Source of the DNA: Candidatus Levybacteria bacterium GW2011_GWA1_37_16 | GTDB taxonomy: Bacteria; Patescibacteriota; Microgenomatia; Levybacterales; UBA12049 | Direction: 5' to 3' | Length of the DNA stretch: 36,583 nucleotides | Assembly (NCBI GenBank): GCA_943354875.1 | Contig: CALRDJ010000006.1 | Span: 1-36,583 of the forward strand | Shown: piece by piece, positions 2,952 to 11,071 of the stretch | Numbering within the stretch: the stretch's first letter is position 1 | Layout: every line of letters starts with the position of its first letter | Notes under the pieces: model-generated | Seen by the model: the letters and a program-made list of their open reading frames with translations, nothing else | The model's database searches: none | What the model was told of the DNA's origin: nothing | Translations under genes and position numbers: made by a program

Positions 2952-3845
2952 CTAAAACCAGCTTTTTTTCGATTTAGAAGAATCAAACTCTTCTAAGAGT
3001 TTTTTCTGTGCGACGGTCAGGCTTTTCGGAATTACGACTTTAAATTTTACATAATGATTTCCTTTTCCGCCTCCTCGCAGGGAGACTATTCCTTTTCCCT
3101 GAAGTCGAAATACGGTTTCTGGCTGAGTACCTGCTGGCACTTTCAGCTTTACTACTCCGTCCACTGTTTTTACATCGATCGTATCACCCAATGCTGCGAG
3201 CGTAAATGGAATTTCTATTTCAGAGATTACATCTGCGCCCTCTCTTTTGAACGTTTTATGCGGCGCTACACTCAGCACCACGTCATATTCTTTAAATCGT
3301 ATTCGGGCACCATCATCTACTCCTGCCGGAATTTTTATCGTCTGAGATTTCTCATCGATAGTCACTTTCTTCTCAGCACCCTTCACTGCGTCCATAAAAT
3401 CGATGGTGAGCGAATATACGGGACGTCTTTGTGCGCGAGCACCCCCAAATGGATTACCAGCTCCGCCACCAAAAAACTGCTCGAAAATATCAAACGGGTC
3501 AGAAGATCCGCCAAAGTCTCCACCATTTGAAGTACTATAACTATAAGAGAATGGCCCCTGTTGTCCACCAAATCCACCAGAGAATGGATTTCCGCCTCCA
3601 AATCCCTGCCCAGCTCCGCTGGACTCAAACCCTGCATGGCCTACCTGATCATACGTCTGACGTTTTTGGGTGTCCGACAATACTTCATATGCTTTCGTCA
3701 CTTCCTTAAATTTATCTGAGGCATCCTTCGCTTTATTTCGATCAGGATGATACTGAAGCGCTAATTTCCGATACGCCTTCTTTATCTCGTCTGCAGACGC
3801 AGTTTTCCCAACTCCGAGTAATGAATAGTAATCTTTACTTGCCAT
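2952..3845 (-). CDS. dnaJ: DnaJ/CbpA-like J-domain co-chaperone lacking the Cys-rich zinc finger
   Basis: N-terminal J domain with HPD ([13 protein letters not shown]), G/F-rich region, C-terminal DnaJ substrate-binding domain; no CxxCxGxG repeats. Confidence 0.9.
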
Positions 3846-4653
3846 ATGTTCTTCCTTCTCCTATTTCCCACACAGCTCGCTCCATAGCGCCTTTAGCAAA
3901 GGCTCCCAGGAACTTATGTCCATTTGTTATTTTAATCGCTGACTTATCATTAAACAATGAGAAGAAAACTCGCCTCAGTCGAACAACCGGTGAAACCGAA
4001 GCTTCAGGATTTTTTCCCTCAGGCTCTATTACACGAGTAGTCCTCGCAGCGATCGCACTAAAAAAATCTTTTTCGGGATCATCAGTTTCTCGAGGAAATA
4101 CAGTCGTAAATGATCTGCCGATATTTCCCAGATGATCATCACTACTACCGGTTACTGCTGCGCCAATTTCACTCGCTATCGCTCCTGCTTTTCTTAGATT
4201 TCTCGCTGATAACATCGGATGTCCAGCCTCGATAAAATCGATATGCATACCCTTATCTGTTATTCTTCGAGCCTCCTGCACCGAAGCCGAACCAGGAGGA
4301 AGAAAAAATCCGAGGTGGGCCAGTCCGACTACAAGCCCCTCCCCATTTGCCTGCTTCACTACTTCAGTCATAGGAGTGGCTATCTTAAACTCTACCGGTT
4401 TTATTCCTGTGGGTGCGTATACCAATACATGACCTTCTCGGGAAGATACCTCAACCCCTCGAAGATATGACGTGTCATCAGATGGTGTGTGCTCCTGCGC
4501 CCACACGTCGTGATCAGTCCTCCCATATAGACCAAGACGAGCATTTTTAGCCAGAATAGCCTGCTCTTCCCACGTTTTTATCCCGTCACTTCTGACAGAA
4601 TGCGTGTGAGGATCTGCTCTCCACATTCTTTTTTCTGCTATATCTCCTGCCAT
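3835..4653 (-). CDS. PHP-domain metal-dependent phosphoesterase-like protein
   Basis: [11 protein letters not shown] motif and later TDHD; likely start is ATG at 4653 ([11 protein letters not shown]) preceded by AGGAGG (CCTCCT at 4659-4664), not the longer ORF start at 4707; 3' end overlaps dnaJ start by 11 bp. Confidence 0.8.
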
Positions 4654-4672
4654 AATTTCCTCCTGTTTTACC

Positions 4673-4694
4673 AAAAAGCCTCGCTCCGCGAGGC
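4673..4694 (-). terminator. Rho-independent terminator downstream of dnaK
   Basis: Minus strand GCCTCGC-GGA-GCGAGGC-TTTTT: perfect 7-bp GC-rich stem, 3-nt loop, T5 tract. Confidence 0.75.
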
Positions 4695-4699
4695 AATGT

Positions 4700-4734
4700 C
4701 TACACACTACTCCCTATATGCTACCCCCTACTCA
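4700..4734. repeat. Degenerate 7-bp-period array (5 units) between dnaK and PHP gene
   Basis: CTACACA CTACTCC CTATATG CTACCCC CTACTCA; CTA at 4700, 4707, 4714, 4721, 4728 exactly; the last CTA is the dnaK stop (TAG). Confidence 0.85.
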
Positions 4735-6644
4735 ACCACTTCGCCTTCTTGCGCTTTATTTTCTTTTTTCTCTTCTGCTCCTTCTGATTCCTTTGTCTCC
4801 CCTGTCTCCTGTGGATCTTCTGGGTCAGCCACGTTTGACGCGGTAGCTTCCTGGTTCTTACTCATCGCTTCTCCAATTTTTTGTAAAGACTCTGATAATT
4901 CTTTCGTTTTTGTCTCTAATTCTTCCTTAGTGCCAGTATCTAAGATGTCTTTCAGGGCTGAAATCTTCTCTTCTATTTCTTTTTTTAAATCCTCTGCCAC
5001 TTTATCCCCTGCGTCTTTTAGCGCTTTTTCTGATGTGAAAATAAGAGAGTCTGCTTGATTTCGAGCTTCTACTCCTGCTTTCTTTTCTTCGTCTTCCTTC
5101 GCGTGCTCCTCCGCTTCTTTCGTCATCTTCTCGACTTCTTCTTTTGAAAGACCGGTCGATCCGGTAATCGTAATTTTCTGTTCTTTTCCGCTCGCTTTAT
5201 CCTTCGCACTGACATGGAGAATTCCACTCGCATCGATATCGAACGTTACTTCTACCTGAGGCATTCCTCGTGGAGCTGGAGGAATACCATCGAGCGCAAA
5301 ACGACCAAGAGATTTATTATCTGAAGCCATGGGTCGCTCTCCTTGGAGTACGTTAATTTCCACCTGTGTTTGATTATCTGCAGCAGTTGAAAACACTTGA
5401 GACTTAGAAGTCGGAATGGTCGAATTTCTCGGAATAAGTGGGGTCGATACGGAGCCGAGTGTTTCGAGTCCCAGTGTCAACGGCGTAACATCGAGGAGCA
5501 ATACATCTTTCACTTCTCCACCGAGAACCCCTCCCTGCACAGCTGCACCGATAGCCACCACTTCGTCTGGATTGACTGACTTATTTGGCTCTTTACCAAA
5601 GAACTTCGTAACCGTTTCGACAATCTTAGGCATTCTCGTCATGCCACCGACGAGTACTACTTCATCTATCTCAGATGCTTTCATCTTCGCATCATCCAGA
5701 GCTTGCTGAACTGGCTTAATCGTTTTCTGGACCAGATCATCAACCAACTGCTCTAGTTTTGCTCGGGTCAACGCTACAGTCAAGTGCAATGGACCGTCTT
5801 TTCCTTGGGTTATAAACGGCTGATTTATCTGCGCCTCTTGTGACGTAGAAAGTTCAATCTTAGCTTTTTCTGCAGATTCCTTTAATCTCTGAAGCGCCTG
5901 AGAATCTTTTCGGAGATCTACGTTATTTTCTTTCTTAAATTCATCAGCTAAGAAGTTTATGATTACCTGGTCAAAATCATCACCACCGAGATGTGTGTCG
6001 CCATTTGTAGATTTTACTTCATATACACCCTCACCAAGCTCGAGAATGGAGATATCAAAGGTTCCTCCTCCGAGGTCATACACAGCAATTGTGTGAGCGT
6101 TTTTCTTATCAAGTCCATAAGCCAAAGCTGCTGCAGTCGGTTCATTTATAATACGGAGTACTTCGAGGCCCGCGATTTCTCCGGCCTGCATGGTAGCCTG
6201 ACGCTGTGAATCGTCAAAGTATGCAGGAACAGTGATAACCGCTTGGGTTATTTTCCCACCCAGATATGCTTCGGCATCTGCTTTTATTTTCTGCAGAATA
6301 GTTGCTGAAACTTCCTGAGGCGTATAGGTTTTTCCATCTACTTCGACCACTGCCATTCCATCACGACCAGATTTAACGGTATATGGCAAAAGCTTCATAT
6401 CGCGCTGCACAGAAGGATCAGTAAACTTTCGACCCATAAGGCGCTTCACCGAATAGATAGTCTCTTTCGACTTTAATACCATCTGACGCTTCGCCACATC
6501 ACCGACGACATGGGATTTCGGATCAACCACTGATGGTATTACGTTACGACCCTCTGCAGAATGGATTACCTTTGGTGCTCCACCCTCCATGACCGCTACC
6601 GCTGAATTTGTCGTTCCTAAATCTATTCCTATAATCTTAGCCAT
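4728..6644 (-). CDS. dnaK: Molecular chaperone DnaK (Hsp70)
   Basis: 638 aa; [44 protein letters not shown]. Confidence 0.98.
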
Positions 6645-6655
6645 ATATTCCTTTC

Positions 6656-6739
6656 AGTTTAATTGAAAATTAAAAATGCAAAATTTAAAATAATGGTACT
6701 TTTATTTTACACTTTTCACTTTTAACTTTGAACTTTCTT
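6656..6739. repeat. Degenerate 7-bp-period A/T-rich array spanning the grpE 3' end and grpE-dnaK gap
   Basis: In one phase: AGTTTAA TTGAAAA TTAAAAA TGCAAAA TTTAAAA TAATGGT ACTTTTA TTTTACA CTTTTCA CTTTTAA CTTTGAA CTTTCTT. Confidence 0.7.
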
Positions 6740-7240
6740 TCCAACTATTACCCCTGCTGGTCTTAGTATTTTATCATATAACATAAACCCTGCGCGCGTC
6801 TCCTGCAGCACCTTATCATTTTCTCCCTCTTCTGCGCTCACGACCTCCATAAGACTTGGATCAAAAGATTTGTTTTTCGTATCAATCCGTATAACCCCTT
6901 CCGCCTTCAACGTGTCTAAGAATTGACTTATAGAAAGCTTCAATCCCTGATCATCGACATGACGCGCTGCCATCATGAGCGTATCAAGCACTGGAAGAAG
7001 CTGGAGCAAGAGTTGCTTATTCGCTGAAAGTATTATCTCTCGACGCTCTCCTGCTATACGCTTTTCCAAGTTTTGATAATCTGCCAATGTGCGTCTTATC
7101 TGGTCCTGTAACGCTTTTGCCTCCTCGCCACATTTACAATTTTCGCATATACAAGAATCGTCCTGCTTTACCTGCTTACCATCAGGCATGGCTTCTTCTG
7201 TTTTGGTATCTTTTTCATCAGTATCGTTTTTATGTGTCAT
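6722..7240 (-). CDS. grpE: Nucleotide exchange factor GrpE
   Basis: LADYQNLEKRIAGERREI...LLPVLDTLMMAARHV, C-terminal LRPAGVIVGKK; between hrcA and dnaK. Confidence 0.93.
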   Translation of the reverse strand: MTHKNDTDEKDTKTEEAMPDGKQVKQDDSCICENCKCGEEAKALQDQIRRTLADYQNLEKRIAGERREIILSANKQLLLQLLPVLDTLMMAARHVDDQGLKLSISQFLDTLKAEGVIRIDTKNKSFDPSLMEVVSAEEGENDKVLQETRAGFMLYDKILRPAGVIVGKKVQS

Positions 7241-7248
7241 GTTTTTAT

Positions 7249-7283
7249 TTAGAAGCTAGCATCTAGTTGCTAGCTTCTAGGTT
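7249..7283. repeat. 7-bp-period CTAG array forming a perfect hairpin in the hrcA-grpE gap
   Basis: TTAGAAG CTAGCAT CTAGTTG CTAGCTT CTAGGTT; CTAG at 7256, 7263, 7270, 7277; TAGAAGCTAGC / GCTAGCTTCTA 11-bp inverted repeat (7250-7260 / 7269-7279), 8-nt loop. Confidence 0.85.
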
Positions 7284-8014
7284 TACCAACCTTTTGCTAT
7301 TTCCTCGATAAGCCCTCCGAAGTATCGAACAGTCGGCACTACATTAGTGTAATTCAAACGTACCGGTCCGATAACTCCGATTTGCCCACCACTATGAAGT
7401 GGCGTTTTATAATTCGTAAATACAAATCCATATTCATGAGATAACTTCGGACCGAAATCTTCACCGAGCATGATATGAATATCCTCTTCTCCTACAGACT
7501 GGGCGAAAATCTCACGAAAGAGATCAAATTCGTCTACCAAGCCAAGTAAATTTTTCGTGATATCGATATCATAAAATTCCGGCATATCGAGGATATTTGC
7601 ATATCCTGAGCAGTATATATCTCCCTCGTCAGTGGTGATGACTGCCATGGCTTTTGTTTTTTCTGCTAATCTTTTCGTCACTTCCTTCAAAAACCTCTGA
7701 TCTCTTTCGCGGTAATCCCAGAGTTTTTCTTTTACGGCTACTTCTTCTGCCACAGACAGCTCTTTTTCTTTCATCAGCTGGGTTACATAAAATTTCATAC
7801 CAAGTGGGGTAGGAATACGTCCGGCTGAAGTGTGAGGCTTCTGGAGATAACCCAGCTCTGTGAGACGAACCATTTCATTTCTGATGGTAGCTGGAGATGC
7901 TGAGACACTGTGCTTTTTTTCAAGGGTTTCTGAACCGACTGGATTTGCGGTTTCGATATATTCCTCTATAAGAGATTTGAGGATGTCTATTTGTCGTTGC
8001 GTTAAGTCATGCAT
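7283..8014 (-). CDS. hrcA: Heat-inducible transcription repressor HrcA (short form)
   Basis: LTQRQIDILKSLIEEYIETANPVGSETL...SPATIRNEMVRLTELGYLQKPHTSAGRIPT; 243 aa; CIRCE upstream. Confidence 0.93.
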   Translation of the reverse strand: MHDLTQRQIDILKSLIEEYIETANPVGSETLEKKHSVSASPATIRNEMVRLTELGYLQKPHTSAGRIPTPLGMKFYVTQLMKEKELSVAEEVAVKEKLWDYRERDQRFLKEVTKRLAEKTKAMAVITTDEGDIYCSGYANILDMPEFYDIDITKNLLGLVDEFDLFREIFAQSVGEEDIHIMLGEDFGPKLSHEYGFVFTNYKTPLHSGGQIGVIGPVRLNYTNVVPTVRYFGGLIEEIAKGW

Positions 8015-8029
8015 ACGCTAAAACTGTTA

Positions 8030-8056
8030 TTAGCACTAATATAGCACGATTGCTAA
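8030..8056. promoter_or_regulatory. CIRCE operator (HrcA binding site) of hrcA-grpE-dnaK
   Basis: TTAGCACTA-N9-GATTGCTAA vs consensus TTAGCACTC-N9-GAGTGCTAA (one mismatch per arm). Confidence 0.9.
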
Positions 8057-8066
8057 TTCTTGTCAA
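8038..8066 (-). promoter_or_regulatory. Sigma70-type promoter of hrcA operon overlapped by CIRCE
   Basis: Minus strand TTGACA (8066-8061) - 17 bp - TATATT (8043-8038). Confidence 0.85.
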
Positions 8067-8125
8067 GAGAGAAAATCACTTTCATTATAATCTAAGAGGA
8101 AAAATAGAGCTTTTTAATGAAGAAC

Positions 8126-8365
8126 TTAGTGGACAAATACAACTGTACCATCGCTACCAGCGCTCTTACGCCCTGCTAATGTGACTTGCTCACCCTCTCG
8201 CAAAGCATTTCCAGCTGACACTGCTTTTACTCCTAAAAACCTCGCTCTTATATCTTCTGCTCCTACTTGCACTACGACGTCTCTGCTAATCGTATGTCTT
8301 CCTCTGACACCTACTCCTATTTCGACTACGCGTCCTCCAAAACTTGGTCGGTGTAATTCTGTCAT
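8126..8365 (-). CDS. Small hypothetical protein (79 aa), Gly/Val-rich, beta-rich composition
   Basis: ORF preceded on minus strand by TTGCAA-17-TATACA ending 8 nt before the ATG; no family recognised. Confidence 0.45.
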   Translation of the reverse strand: MTELHRPSFGGRVVEIGVGVRGRHTISRDVVVQVGAEDIRARFLGVKAVSAGNALREGEQVTLAGRKSAGSDGTVVFVH

Positions 8366-8373
8366 ATTAAATA

Positions 8374-8402
8374 TGTATAATACTATTTATACCGTTTTGC
8401 AA
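8374..8402 (-). promoter_or_regulatory. Putative promoter for the 79-aa ORF (leaderless geometry)
   Basis: Minus strand TTGCAA (8402-8397) - 17 - TATACA (8379-8374); ATG at 8365. Confidence 0.5.
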
Positions 8403-8418
8403 GTGGTAAAATAAATTC

Positions 8419-8754
8419 ATGCGTCAGCCGAAACGAAACATCCTTCATCTCATCCTCGGCGTTGTATTCATCATAGTTTCTGCCTATTTCATATTTTTTT
8501 TCCCACCGAATTGGAAATTTGATATTTTGAATTGGAAATTAGAAATTCTGTATCTTTTCTTTATCTCTCTCTTTTTATCCATATATTTTATCTGTACTTT
8601 TTTACTGAACAACAGTCGTCGCGGATTATTTCTGAGCTCAGTAGCGGTGATCTACTTACTCTTACGACTCCTGCATCTCACCCAGCCTTTCTTCATAATT
8701 CTCTTGCTCGTATTTTTCGCGATCCTCGAACTAGCATTTTCGAAAAAGAGTTAA
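8419..8754 (+). CDS. Small multi-pass membrane protein, hypothetical
   Basis: 111 aa with several hydrophobic segments; start preceded by TAAAAT -10-like box. Confidence 0.65.
   Translation: MRQPKRNILHLILGVVFIIVSAYFIFFFPPNWKFDILNWKLEILYLFFISLFLSIYFICTFLLNNSRRGLFLSSVAVIYLLLRLLHLTQPFFIILLLVFFAILELAFSKKS
8511..8552. repeat. 7-bp-period array inside the 8419-8754 coding sequence
   Basis: TTGGAAA TTTGATA TTTTGAA TTGGAAA TTAGAAA TTCTGTA; encodes NWKFDILNWKLEIL (7-aa repeat from 3x7 bp). Confidence 0.75.
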
Positions 8755-8755
8755 T

Positions 8756-8784
8756 TTGTCGAAAGATCGATCGTCTGCTAGAAT
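8756..8784 (+). promoter_or_regulatory. Putative metG promoter
   Basis: TTGTCG - 17 bp - TAGAAT; ATG 12 nt downstream of -10. Confidence 0.6.
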
Positions 8785-8796
8785 CAGTACATCAAT

Positions 8797-10215
8797 ATGA
8801 GTAAGTTTTATATAACAAATGCCATTCCCTATGTAAACGCGAAACCGCATATCGGTCATGCGCTTGAATTCATTCAGTCTGATGTAATCGCCAGATTTCA
8901 TCGATTACTTGGTGACAAAACAATTCTTCTGTGCGGGGGGGATGAAAATGCGATAAAAAATGTCCAAGCTGCAGAAAAAGCAGAACAACCGATCCAGGAA
9001 TTTATCGATGAAAATACCCAATTGTTTTCAGAAGTAGCTAAAAACCTTCATGTTCAGTTTGACGTATTCCAAAAAGGAAGCGATGAAAAACACCACTTAG
9101 CATCCCAAAAACTCTGGAAGCTATGTGATAAAAATAGCGACATTTATAAAAAATCTTACACTGGATTTTATTGCGTCGGGTGCGAACAGTTTTACGAAAA
9201 AGAAGAACTAGACAAAGCAGGTGAATGCTTCGAACATCCAGGACGAAAACTCGATGAGGTTTCCGAAGAAAACTATTTTTTCAAATTATCTCACTATACC
9301 GACCAGATAATTAAACTGATTGAAAGCGATGAATTAAAAATTGTTCCTATCGTTCGAAAAAACGAAGCACTCGCATTTCTAAAAAGAGGGCTGAAAGATA
9401 TCAGTATTTCCAGAAGCAATGAACGCGCGAAAAACTGGGGAGTTTCAGTTCCCGGTGACGAAACACAAAAAATGTATGTGTGGTTTGACGCATTAAATAT
9501 TTATCAATCAGGCGTGGGTTTTGGTTTCGATGAAAATCAATATAACGCATGGTGGCCAGCCGATATCCACGTGATCGGGAAAGGAATTCTTAGATTTCAT
9601 GCCATCTATTGGATCGCATTTCTACTTTCGGCCAAACTCGCATTACCCAAATCTATTTTCGTCCACGAATACATCACAGTAAACGGTCAAAAGATGTCAA
9701 AGACCCTAGGAAACGTTATAGATCCAAACGAACTAATCTCCACCTATGGCGCTGAGGCACTTCGCTATTTCATGCTTGCCAAACTATCTCCTTTTTCTGA
9801 TGGTGATTTTTCAGAAAGTAAATTAAAAGAAACGTATAACTCAGATCTGGCAAATGGCCTCGGAAATCTTATAGCCAGAATTGCAAAACTCTGTGAAAAA
9901 GTTGCATTAAACATACAACCGATAAGCCAACCCCTGGATGAAGCTGTAGTTACAAAATTAAACGAATATAAATTCAATGAGGCTCTCAATATAGTGTGGG
10001 ATAAGATTTCTCGCTTGGACAAACATATTAACGAGAAGAAACCATGGACACTAGAGGGAGATGACTTGAACACTTTTCTCCAAGAAGCAAGCACAGATAT
10101 TATTTCTATAGCCTCCAATTTACAACCATTTCTACCCGAAACCGCAGAGAAAATTCTGACTCAATTTAGTGGATCTATCAAGTCAGCTCCCTCTCTGTTT
10201 CCTCGAATCCAGTAA
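8797..10215 (+). CDS. metG: Methionyl-tRNA synthetase (short form)
   Basis: ITNAIPYVNAKPHIGHALEFIQSDVIARF; GQKMSKTLGNVIDP KMSKS-like motif; 472 aa. Confidence 0.95.
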   Translation: MSKFYITNAIPYVNAKPHIGHALEFIQSDVIARFHRLLGDKTILLCGGDENAIKNVQAAEKAEQPIQEFIDENTQLFSEVAKNLHVQFDVFQKGSDEKHHLASQKLWKLCDKNSDIYKKSYTGFYCVGCEQFYEKEELDKAGECFEHPGRKLDEVSEENYFFKLSHYTDQIIKLIESDELKIVPIVRKNEALAFLKRGLKDISISRSNERAKNWGVSVPGDETQKMYVWFDALNIYQSGVGFGFDENQYNAWWPADIHVIGKGILRFHAIYWIAFLLSAKLALPKSIFVHEYITVNGQKMSKTLGNVIDPNELISTYGAEALRYFMLAKLSPFSDGDFSESKLKETYNSDLANGLGNLIARIAKLCEKVALNIQPISQPLDEAVVTKLNEYKFNEALNIVWDKISRLDKHINEKKPWTLEGDDLNTFLQEASTDIISIASNLQPFLPETAEKILTQFSGSIKSAPSLFPRIQ

Positions 10216-10244: not shown

Positions 10245-11054
10245 ATGGTTGATGTGCATTGTCATCTGAACTTCAAGTCGTTTTCCGAAGATTATGACGA
10301 AATTATAAAGCGGGCAGAAAAAGCAGGAGTTACCACTATTATAAATACAGGCACGCAAATAAGCTCGAGTACCAGAGCTGTCGAACTCGCGAGTGAATAT
10401 GAAAACTTGTATGCCATCGTCGGTGTTCATCCGCATCATGCAGATAAACTAGAAGACGGATGGATAGAGGAATTGGAAAAACTCACCAAACAGCCAAAAG
10501 TAGTCGGAATAGGTGAGTGCGGGATGGATTTTTATGCCTATGCATCCAATGGCATCGTAGACCCGAAATTACAAACAGAAGCGTTTGAGGCTCAGATTGA
10601 ACTCGCTCACCGTGCGGATCTACCACTCCAGATTCATAATCGCCAAGCAGGAAAAAAAGTTATAGAAATTCTAAAACACCACAAAAATAGTCTTAAAACT
10701 GGCATTCCAGGTATGTTTCATTGCTTTGCCGGTAACTTCGATTTCCTAGATGCAGCGCTTGATTTAGGCTTCTACATAGGCTTCGATGGGAATACTACCT
10801 ATGACGGCCTGGCCAAGGAAGAGGATACTGATCTAAAAGACATAGCAAGGCGCACGCCCCTGGAACGAATAGTTATAGAAACTGATAGTCCATATCTTCC
10901 TCCAGAACCACACAGACGTAGCCGAAATGAGCCTAGCTATGCTATAATTACTGCGGAATTTATAGCTCAATTGAAAAACGTTTCTTTTGAAGATTTCGAT
11001 CTCGTAACAACCGAAAACGCCAGAGCAATATTTCAATTAGACGCTAGACCCTAA
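10245..11054 (+). CDS. tatD: TatD family metal-dependent hydrolase
   Basis: MVDVHCHLNF, VGVHPHHAD, GIGECGMDFY, ETDSPYLPPEPHRRSRNEP; start placed at 10245 rather than TTG at 10230. Confidence 0.92.
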   Translation: MVDVHCHLNFKSFSEDYDEIIKRAEKAGVTTIINTGTQISSSTRAVELASEYENLYAIVGVHPHHADKLEDGWIEELEKLTKQPKVVGIGECGMDFYAYASNGIVDPKLQTEAFEAQIELAHRADLPLQIHNRQAGKKVIEILKHHKNSLKTGIPGMFHCFAGNFDFLDAALDLGFYIGFDGNTTYDGLAKEEDTDLKDIARRTPLERIVIETDSPYLPPEPHRRSRNEPSYAIITAEFIAQLKNVSFEDFDLVTTENARAIFQLDARP

Positions 11055-11071
11055 ACCCTATACGCTAACAT
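11037..11071. repeat. Telomere-like 7-bp-period array between tatD and GT2 gene
   Basis: TTAGACG CTAGACC CTAAACC CTATACG CTAACAT; contains the tatD stop codon (TAA 11052-11054). Confidence 0.85.

Follow-up and report, generated by a model that had tools for sequence, protein, structure and literature searches.

Between hrcA and grpE in the chaperone operon of this Levybacterales genome lies a short array of CTAG-bearing heptamers that also folds into a perfect hairpin. Its position and shape raise the question of whether it is a regulatory element of this junction or one product of a process that acts on the genome as a whole. We examined the array in the window (the whole 36,583-nt stretch of DNA analysed), in the genome and in related bacteria.

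The array and hairpin at the hrcA–grpE junction

The array occupies 34 bp (7250–7283, no strand assigned) and has the unit CTAGNNN with a palindromic core. It overlaps the last base of the stop codon of hrcA, which encodes the heat-shock repressor (7283–8014, minus strand; PF01628, PF03444), and lies ahead of grpE (6722–7240, minus strand; PF01025). The four CTAG copies start at 7256, 7263, 7270 and 7277, in the exact 7-bp steps described in a sequence-only reading of this DNA. A read of positions 7240–7290 also upheld the perfect stem of that description and corrected its size: 12 bp with a 6-nt loop (7262–7267), instead of 11 bp with an 8-nt loop. On the minus strand the 5′ arm of the mRNA hairpin corresponds to 7268–7279 and pairs with the 3′ arm at 7250–7261. 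Two further details of the description held, namely the 9 bases (7241–7249) that separate the stem from the grpE AUG and the presence of stops in all six frames. The stops arise because a step of 7, not being divisible by 3, shifts the frame with every unit, and because TAG is contained in both strands of CTAG. The hairpin, in turn, results from the palindromic core together with matching variable triplets.

Folded on the mRNA strand, the array reaches −22 kcal/mol (z −5.1), and none of 200 shuffles folded as well. Given the CTAG framework, the chance of a stem of at least 11 bp is P ~0.009; the hairpin is therefore unusual, yet largely pre-paid by its palindromic core, and with roughly 40 arrays to draw on, a chance of ~1% is unremarkable. 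It is locally unusual all the same: of 148 CTAG arrays in other bacteria, not one has a stem of at least 9 bp. The supposed rarity of CTAG amounts to a mild depletion in the window (82 observed vs 119 expected). When the window was scanned for four equally spaced identical tetramers, only lag 7 gave hits, at two places (6711 and 7256). Genome-wide statistics of CTAG spacing, to which the sequence-only reading had pointed as a check, agree: the whole genome has CTAG(N3)CTAG(N3)CTAG at 5 places, with 7 matches, and the reversed control at 0. The array has no other copy in the genome, the best other match having E ~0.1.

Several familiar roles were considered for the array and rejected. As an intrinsic terminator it lacks a U-tract after the stem, both on reading and in a terminator scan that called no terminator-like site there, which bears out the earlier remark on the missing T-tract. 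As a known structured RNA it has no Rfam match at the gathering score; within 6000–9000 of the window the sole sub-threshold match lies inside hrcA. As an HrcA operator it does not match CIRCE (TTAGCACTC-N9-GAGTGCTAA); a CIRCE-like HrcA operator, TTAGCACTA-N9-GATTGCTAA, is found instead at 8030–8056 (no strand assigned), with 2 mismatches to the consensus. This site overlaps a sigma-70-like promoter (TTGACA-17-TATATT, 8038–8066, minus strand), called by consensus match only, and transcription of the operon is presumably controlled there, upstream of hrcA. The promoter-like site is of the extended −10 type, and together with the operator it takes up 8030–8066. The operon also carries a gene with a PHP-associated domain (3835–4707) between dnaK and dnaJ.

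Period-7 arrays in the genome, in genes and in relatives

To place the array in its genomic setting, we scanned 1,038,985 of 1,050,209 bases (99%), with stretches joined per contig and genes called as the longest ORFs of at least 80 aa, which makes gene starts approximate. Intergenic arrays of three identical tetramers numbered 39 at lag 7, against 0–6 at lags 5–6, 8–13 and 15; the signal at lag 14 is the expected harmonic of 7. Genome-wide, lag 7 gave 51 arrays with a score of at least 16, and each of the remaining lags tested between 4 and 13 gave 0–8. Two genomes of the same family, sampled over 400 kb each, contained 27 and 41 lag-7 arrays, and in one genome from another family of the class lag 7 was not dominant, with 7 arrays against 18 at lag 9. 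The CTAG array is one of many and is not peculiar to the hrcA–grpE junction. Three further arrays lie in the window itself: one with inverted arms that fills the grpE–dnaK gap (6661–6736) and is a copy of a dispersed palindromic repeat of ~80 bp (6655–6740, no strand assigned); one of TAGACGC, TAGACCC and TAAACCC (11038–11067, plus strand), which spans the stop codon of a gene ending at 11054; and one within an ORF (8509–8547, plus strand), encoding the peptide NWKFDILNWKLEI.

The units are locus-specific (TTAGTTA, TTTACGC, AAGTTAA and CTAGNNN among others): 57 arrays from three genomes have ~40 different consensus units, and no genome has a single dominant one. What the arrays have in common is their place and size. 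Their density is 372 per Mb between genes vs 31 per Mb in ORFs; tandem and divergent gaps are similar in this respect, and convergent gaps have a somewhat lower density. The median distance is 0 nt to the upstream stop codon and 9 nt to the downstream start. Length peaks at 4–5 units, the median being 34 nt in genes and 35 nt between genes, which the 34-nt CTAG array matches. The CTAG unit is also met elsewhere. Among 287 genomes of the phylum, 32 contain three copies at 7-bp spacing, compared with 18 for a spacing of 6 bp and 6 for one of 8 bp, and four phylum genomes (G244, G051, G149, G037) hold many CTAG heptamer arrays (11–41 matches). In a species-wide collection, the matches listed for four copies at 7 bp include cyanobacteria, Bacteroidota, Shewanella, Acidobacteria, other candidate-phyla bacteria and more. 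A viral control gave 75 occurrences at 8 bp, while its totals for 7 and 6 bp are lower bounds from which no contrast between 7 and 6 can be read.

The same detector, applied to ORFs of the three genomes, found 91 arrays at lag 7 vs 0–15 at lags 5, 6 and 8–11. These arrays mostly have their stop-free strand as the coding strand, and the product is a peptide with a period of seven residues (KFKIQNSKFKI and LYAIRYTLYAI, for example). For 75 of the 91, a homologue could be aligned through the array; among the 59 pairs with better conservation, identity to the homologue is 30% within the array and 62% in the flanks. Equal positions in orthologues can be filled by different units: ELKVKSSKLKI in a gene on contig C2 corresponds to EILNLKSQISN in the family genome G006. 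In-gene arrays were seen in G006, G032 and the genome studied here, the orthologous position sometimes being kept and the units not. Rickettsia palindromic elements likewise lie both between and inside protein genes in frame-compatible form; those are longer palindromes of shared sequence, whereas the present arrays are heptameric, ~34 nt long and locus-specific.

Among 60 relatives, all of other genera, HrcA was found in 54 and the hrcA–grpE junction could be read in 49. The junctions mostly measure either −7 to 11 nt or ~33–60 nt, and the longer ones are usually heptamer arrays. Their units are AATTAAA, AATTCAA, AATTAAG or TAG-centred (in three genera); CTAG occurs only in the genome studied here. 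At one threshold, arrays were detected at 13 of 19 family hrcA–grpE junctions of 15–120 nt and at 39 of 378 other tandem junctions (odds ratio 19, Fisher p 1e-8, uncorrected for shared ancestry). On the HrcA tree, presence of the array requires 13 changes, not far from the 15.3 with shuffled labels, four labels being set by reading and not by score (L210, L212 and L221 as array, L235 as none). Well-supported sister pairs differ: the stop and start overlap in L209 and are 43 nt apart in L220, and the gap is 1 nt in L303 and 51 nt in L306. The grpE–dnaK junction shows a similar picture, with arrays in 13 of 49 genomes read, the present one included. For other gene pairs, arrays are rarely common to genomes, and the counterpart of an array gap in the present genome is often a near-zero gap in a relative (92 vs −4, 81 vs 3 and 98 vs −11 nt). 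A distant relative, L315, has a strong run of period 8, not 7, after hrcA. The sequence-only reading had let its proposals depend in part on recurrence of the hairpin or the spacing in relatives, and here the outcome is divided. The 7-nt spacing does recur at the orthologous junction; the hairpin does not, since of the array-bearing junctions folded only that in the window has z < −4 and most others are nearly unstructured, nor does the CTAG core.

Weighing the possible origins

The period and size of the arrays recur while their sequence does not, and we therefore favour a repeat-generating process with a 7-nt step that acts genome-wide and makes arrays which survive mainly at gene junctions, as spacers, with a probability of about 60%. 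The data show an excess at 7 nt, units specific to each locus, recurrence at the hrcA–grpE junction, gain or loss between sister genera and presence in genes; that the arrays arise by slippage or template switching, and that they act as passive spacers, is what we infer. DNA-polymerase slippage would turn a short local sequence into ~4–5 heptamer copies (~34 bp), with template switching joining in where arms are inverted. Arrays arising in coding sequence would survive only when the reading frame stays open, and those at gene junctions would survive readily. At hrcA–grpE, a nearly overlapping stop and start would in this way have become a spacer of 42 nt. Whole-element copying also contributes, because about a third of the genome's own arrays fold better than shuffles (13 of 42 with z < −2, some of them large inverted pairs) and some belong to dispersed families. 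Several points, this one among them, count against the favoured reading. The copy number peaks at 4–5 instead of falling off geometrically, contrary to what simple slippage predicts; units that bear stops are more frequent than composition predicts; and the hotspot at hrcA–grpE hints at selection or a targeting preference.

It is conceivable, if unlikely, that an unusual polymerase, primase or repair pathway is at work in this family of ultra-small bacteria and actively writes locus-specific heptamer arrays of ~34 nt into junctions, and even into conserved genes, returning to the same sites again and again, with the result that the periodicity is inherited and the sequence is not.

The hairpin can also be read as a regulatory device. 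The 12-bp stem would hide the ribosome site of grpE until a ribosome finishing hrcA invaded and opened the upstream arm, so that GrpE would be made only when HrcA is translated. The strength of the fold fits such a translation-coupling gate, as do the upstream arm beginning 3 nt after the hrcA stop, the stem ending just ahead of the AUG and the lack of terminator features and, on reading, of any Shine-Dalgarno-like sequence at the grpE junction. These features make the gate plausible in mechanical terms in this one genome. Conservation gives it no support: orthologous junctions lack the hairpin, and in many relatives the stop and start almost touch. We regard the gate as a rather improbable explanation.

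Selection could alternatively act on stops, with stop units at 7-nt spacing ending translation between genes in every frame and on both strands. All three sense frames are closed by 21 of 33 tandem-gap arrays vs 15% of control windows, and units with stops on both strands number 32 of 57, where composition predicts 16.6. Some of this excess is automatic, because successive copies of a stop in a 7-nt unit fall into every frame in turn; some may be an artefact, as the calling of gaps from the ORFs on either side favours stop-bearing arrays. A cassette of this kind would work with every step that is not a multiple of 3, yet only 7 is used; arrays are present in ORFs as well; and among orthologous junction arrays, that of L210 has no sense stop and those of L211 and L222 close one frame only. 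A selected stop cassette appears improbable on these grounds. A stop 7 nt past the real stop occurs in 6 of 33 array gaps vs 7% of other gaps. Seeding of the array by the upstream stop codon was considered and rejected: it is suggestive in a few cases (L220), and in the window the offset is 6.

The arrays might also be degenerate REP- or MITE-like palindromes inserted at gene ends by a mobile element. Copies do exist: 28 of 49 arrays have another in the genome. The array in the grpE–dnaK gap belongs to a family of imperfect palindromes of ~80 bp with heptamer-periodic arms and a GTAC-type centre, five further copies of which (on contigs C63, C56, C62, C36 and C10) are 84–88% identical over most of their length. 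On the other side, the CTAG array is present once, units differ from locus to locus, and a search for the Y1 transposase (Y1_Tnp) found none in the genome while its controls gave signal, which argues against a REP/RAYT system. Mobility thus seems a doubtful source for the CTAG array. A second long inverted heptamer element, GAAATGAAT...TTTGATTGAAAATT, looks alike in two genera by eye (C37:11531–11631, C29:9079–9127 and C53:5163–5229 here; 116141, 27502 and 149956 in G006), and its three copies in the present genome match one another.

A protein-binding array, for instance a cooperative operator with palindromic CTAG boxes, is very improbable, contrary to one suggestion of the sequence-only reading: exact phasing and the palindromic core are common to a few other loci, but units differ between loci and genera, relatives retain the phasing and not the sequence, a CIRCE-like operator is already present at the operon's promoter-like site, and a 7-bp step does not hold one helix face. 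Taken together, the interpretation offered by that reading, which named an RNA-processing or stability hairpin, a translation gate or a protein-binding array, is partly supported.

Relation to known heptamer repeats

Heptamer repeats have been described in several bacteria. In Xanthomonas, GGGAATC or (GGGANTN)n repeats are heterogeneous, mostly of four units, located near the upstream gene and often in inverted pairs, with no function found, and Nostoc has the heptamer GGGGA(C/T)T (PMC4692102). The present arrays resemble both in the 7-nt unit with a conserved core and variable positions, in the number of about four units, in the mostly intergenic location near the upstream 3′ end and in the inverted pairs; they differ in that a single G-rich unit able to form G-quadruplexes dominates in Xanthomonas and Nostoc (PMC4692102), whereas here the units are locus-specific and mostly AT-rich, and in that many arrays lie within conserved genes. 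TAACTGA direct repeats of Beggiatoaceae, Cyanobacteria and Bacteroidetes, many of them just upstream of starts, are likewise short intergenic heptamer arrays with stop-bearing units; unlike the present arrays, they have one invariant unit genome-wide, form no hairpin and are a proposed target of an RNA-binding regulator (PMC4679880). Cyanobacterial short tandemly repeated repetitive (STRR) heptamers, as cited in PMC4692102, are tandem and have several units per genome (Calothrix), a likeness to the present arrays that is by description. A single dominant unit is therefore a trait of the Xanthomonas and Beggiatoaceae cases and not of heptamer repeats as a class. By their length of 7, their intergenic bias and their roughly four units near the upstream gene, the present arrays are to be classed as a variant of the intergenic heptamer repeats already described from bacteria; what sets them apart is that period and size recur and sequence does not.

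Such repeats have been noted since at least 2007, when, as cited in PMC4692102, polymerase slippage at 7 nt was proposed, and they have no accepted cause. The present family separates the period from the sequence: orthologous junctions, and some positions within proteins, carry arrays of equal step and similar size made of other units, which argues for a 7-nt mutational process over a sequence-specific regulator. The striking hairpin between hrcA and grpE is accordingly a caution against reading such a structure as a conserved riboregulator, and the origin of the arrays becomes a question testable through the comparison of close strains.
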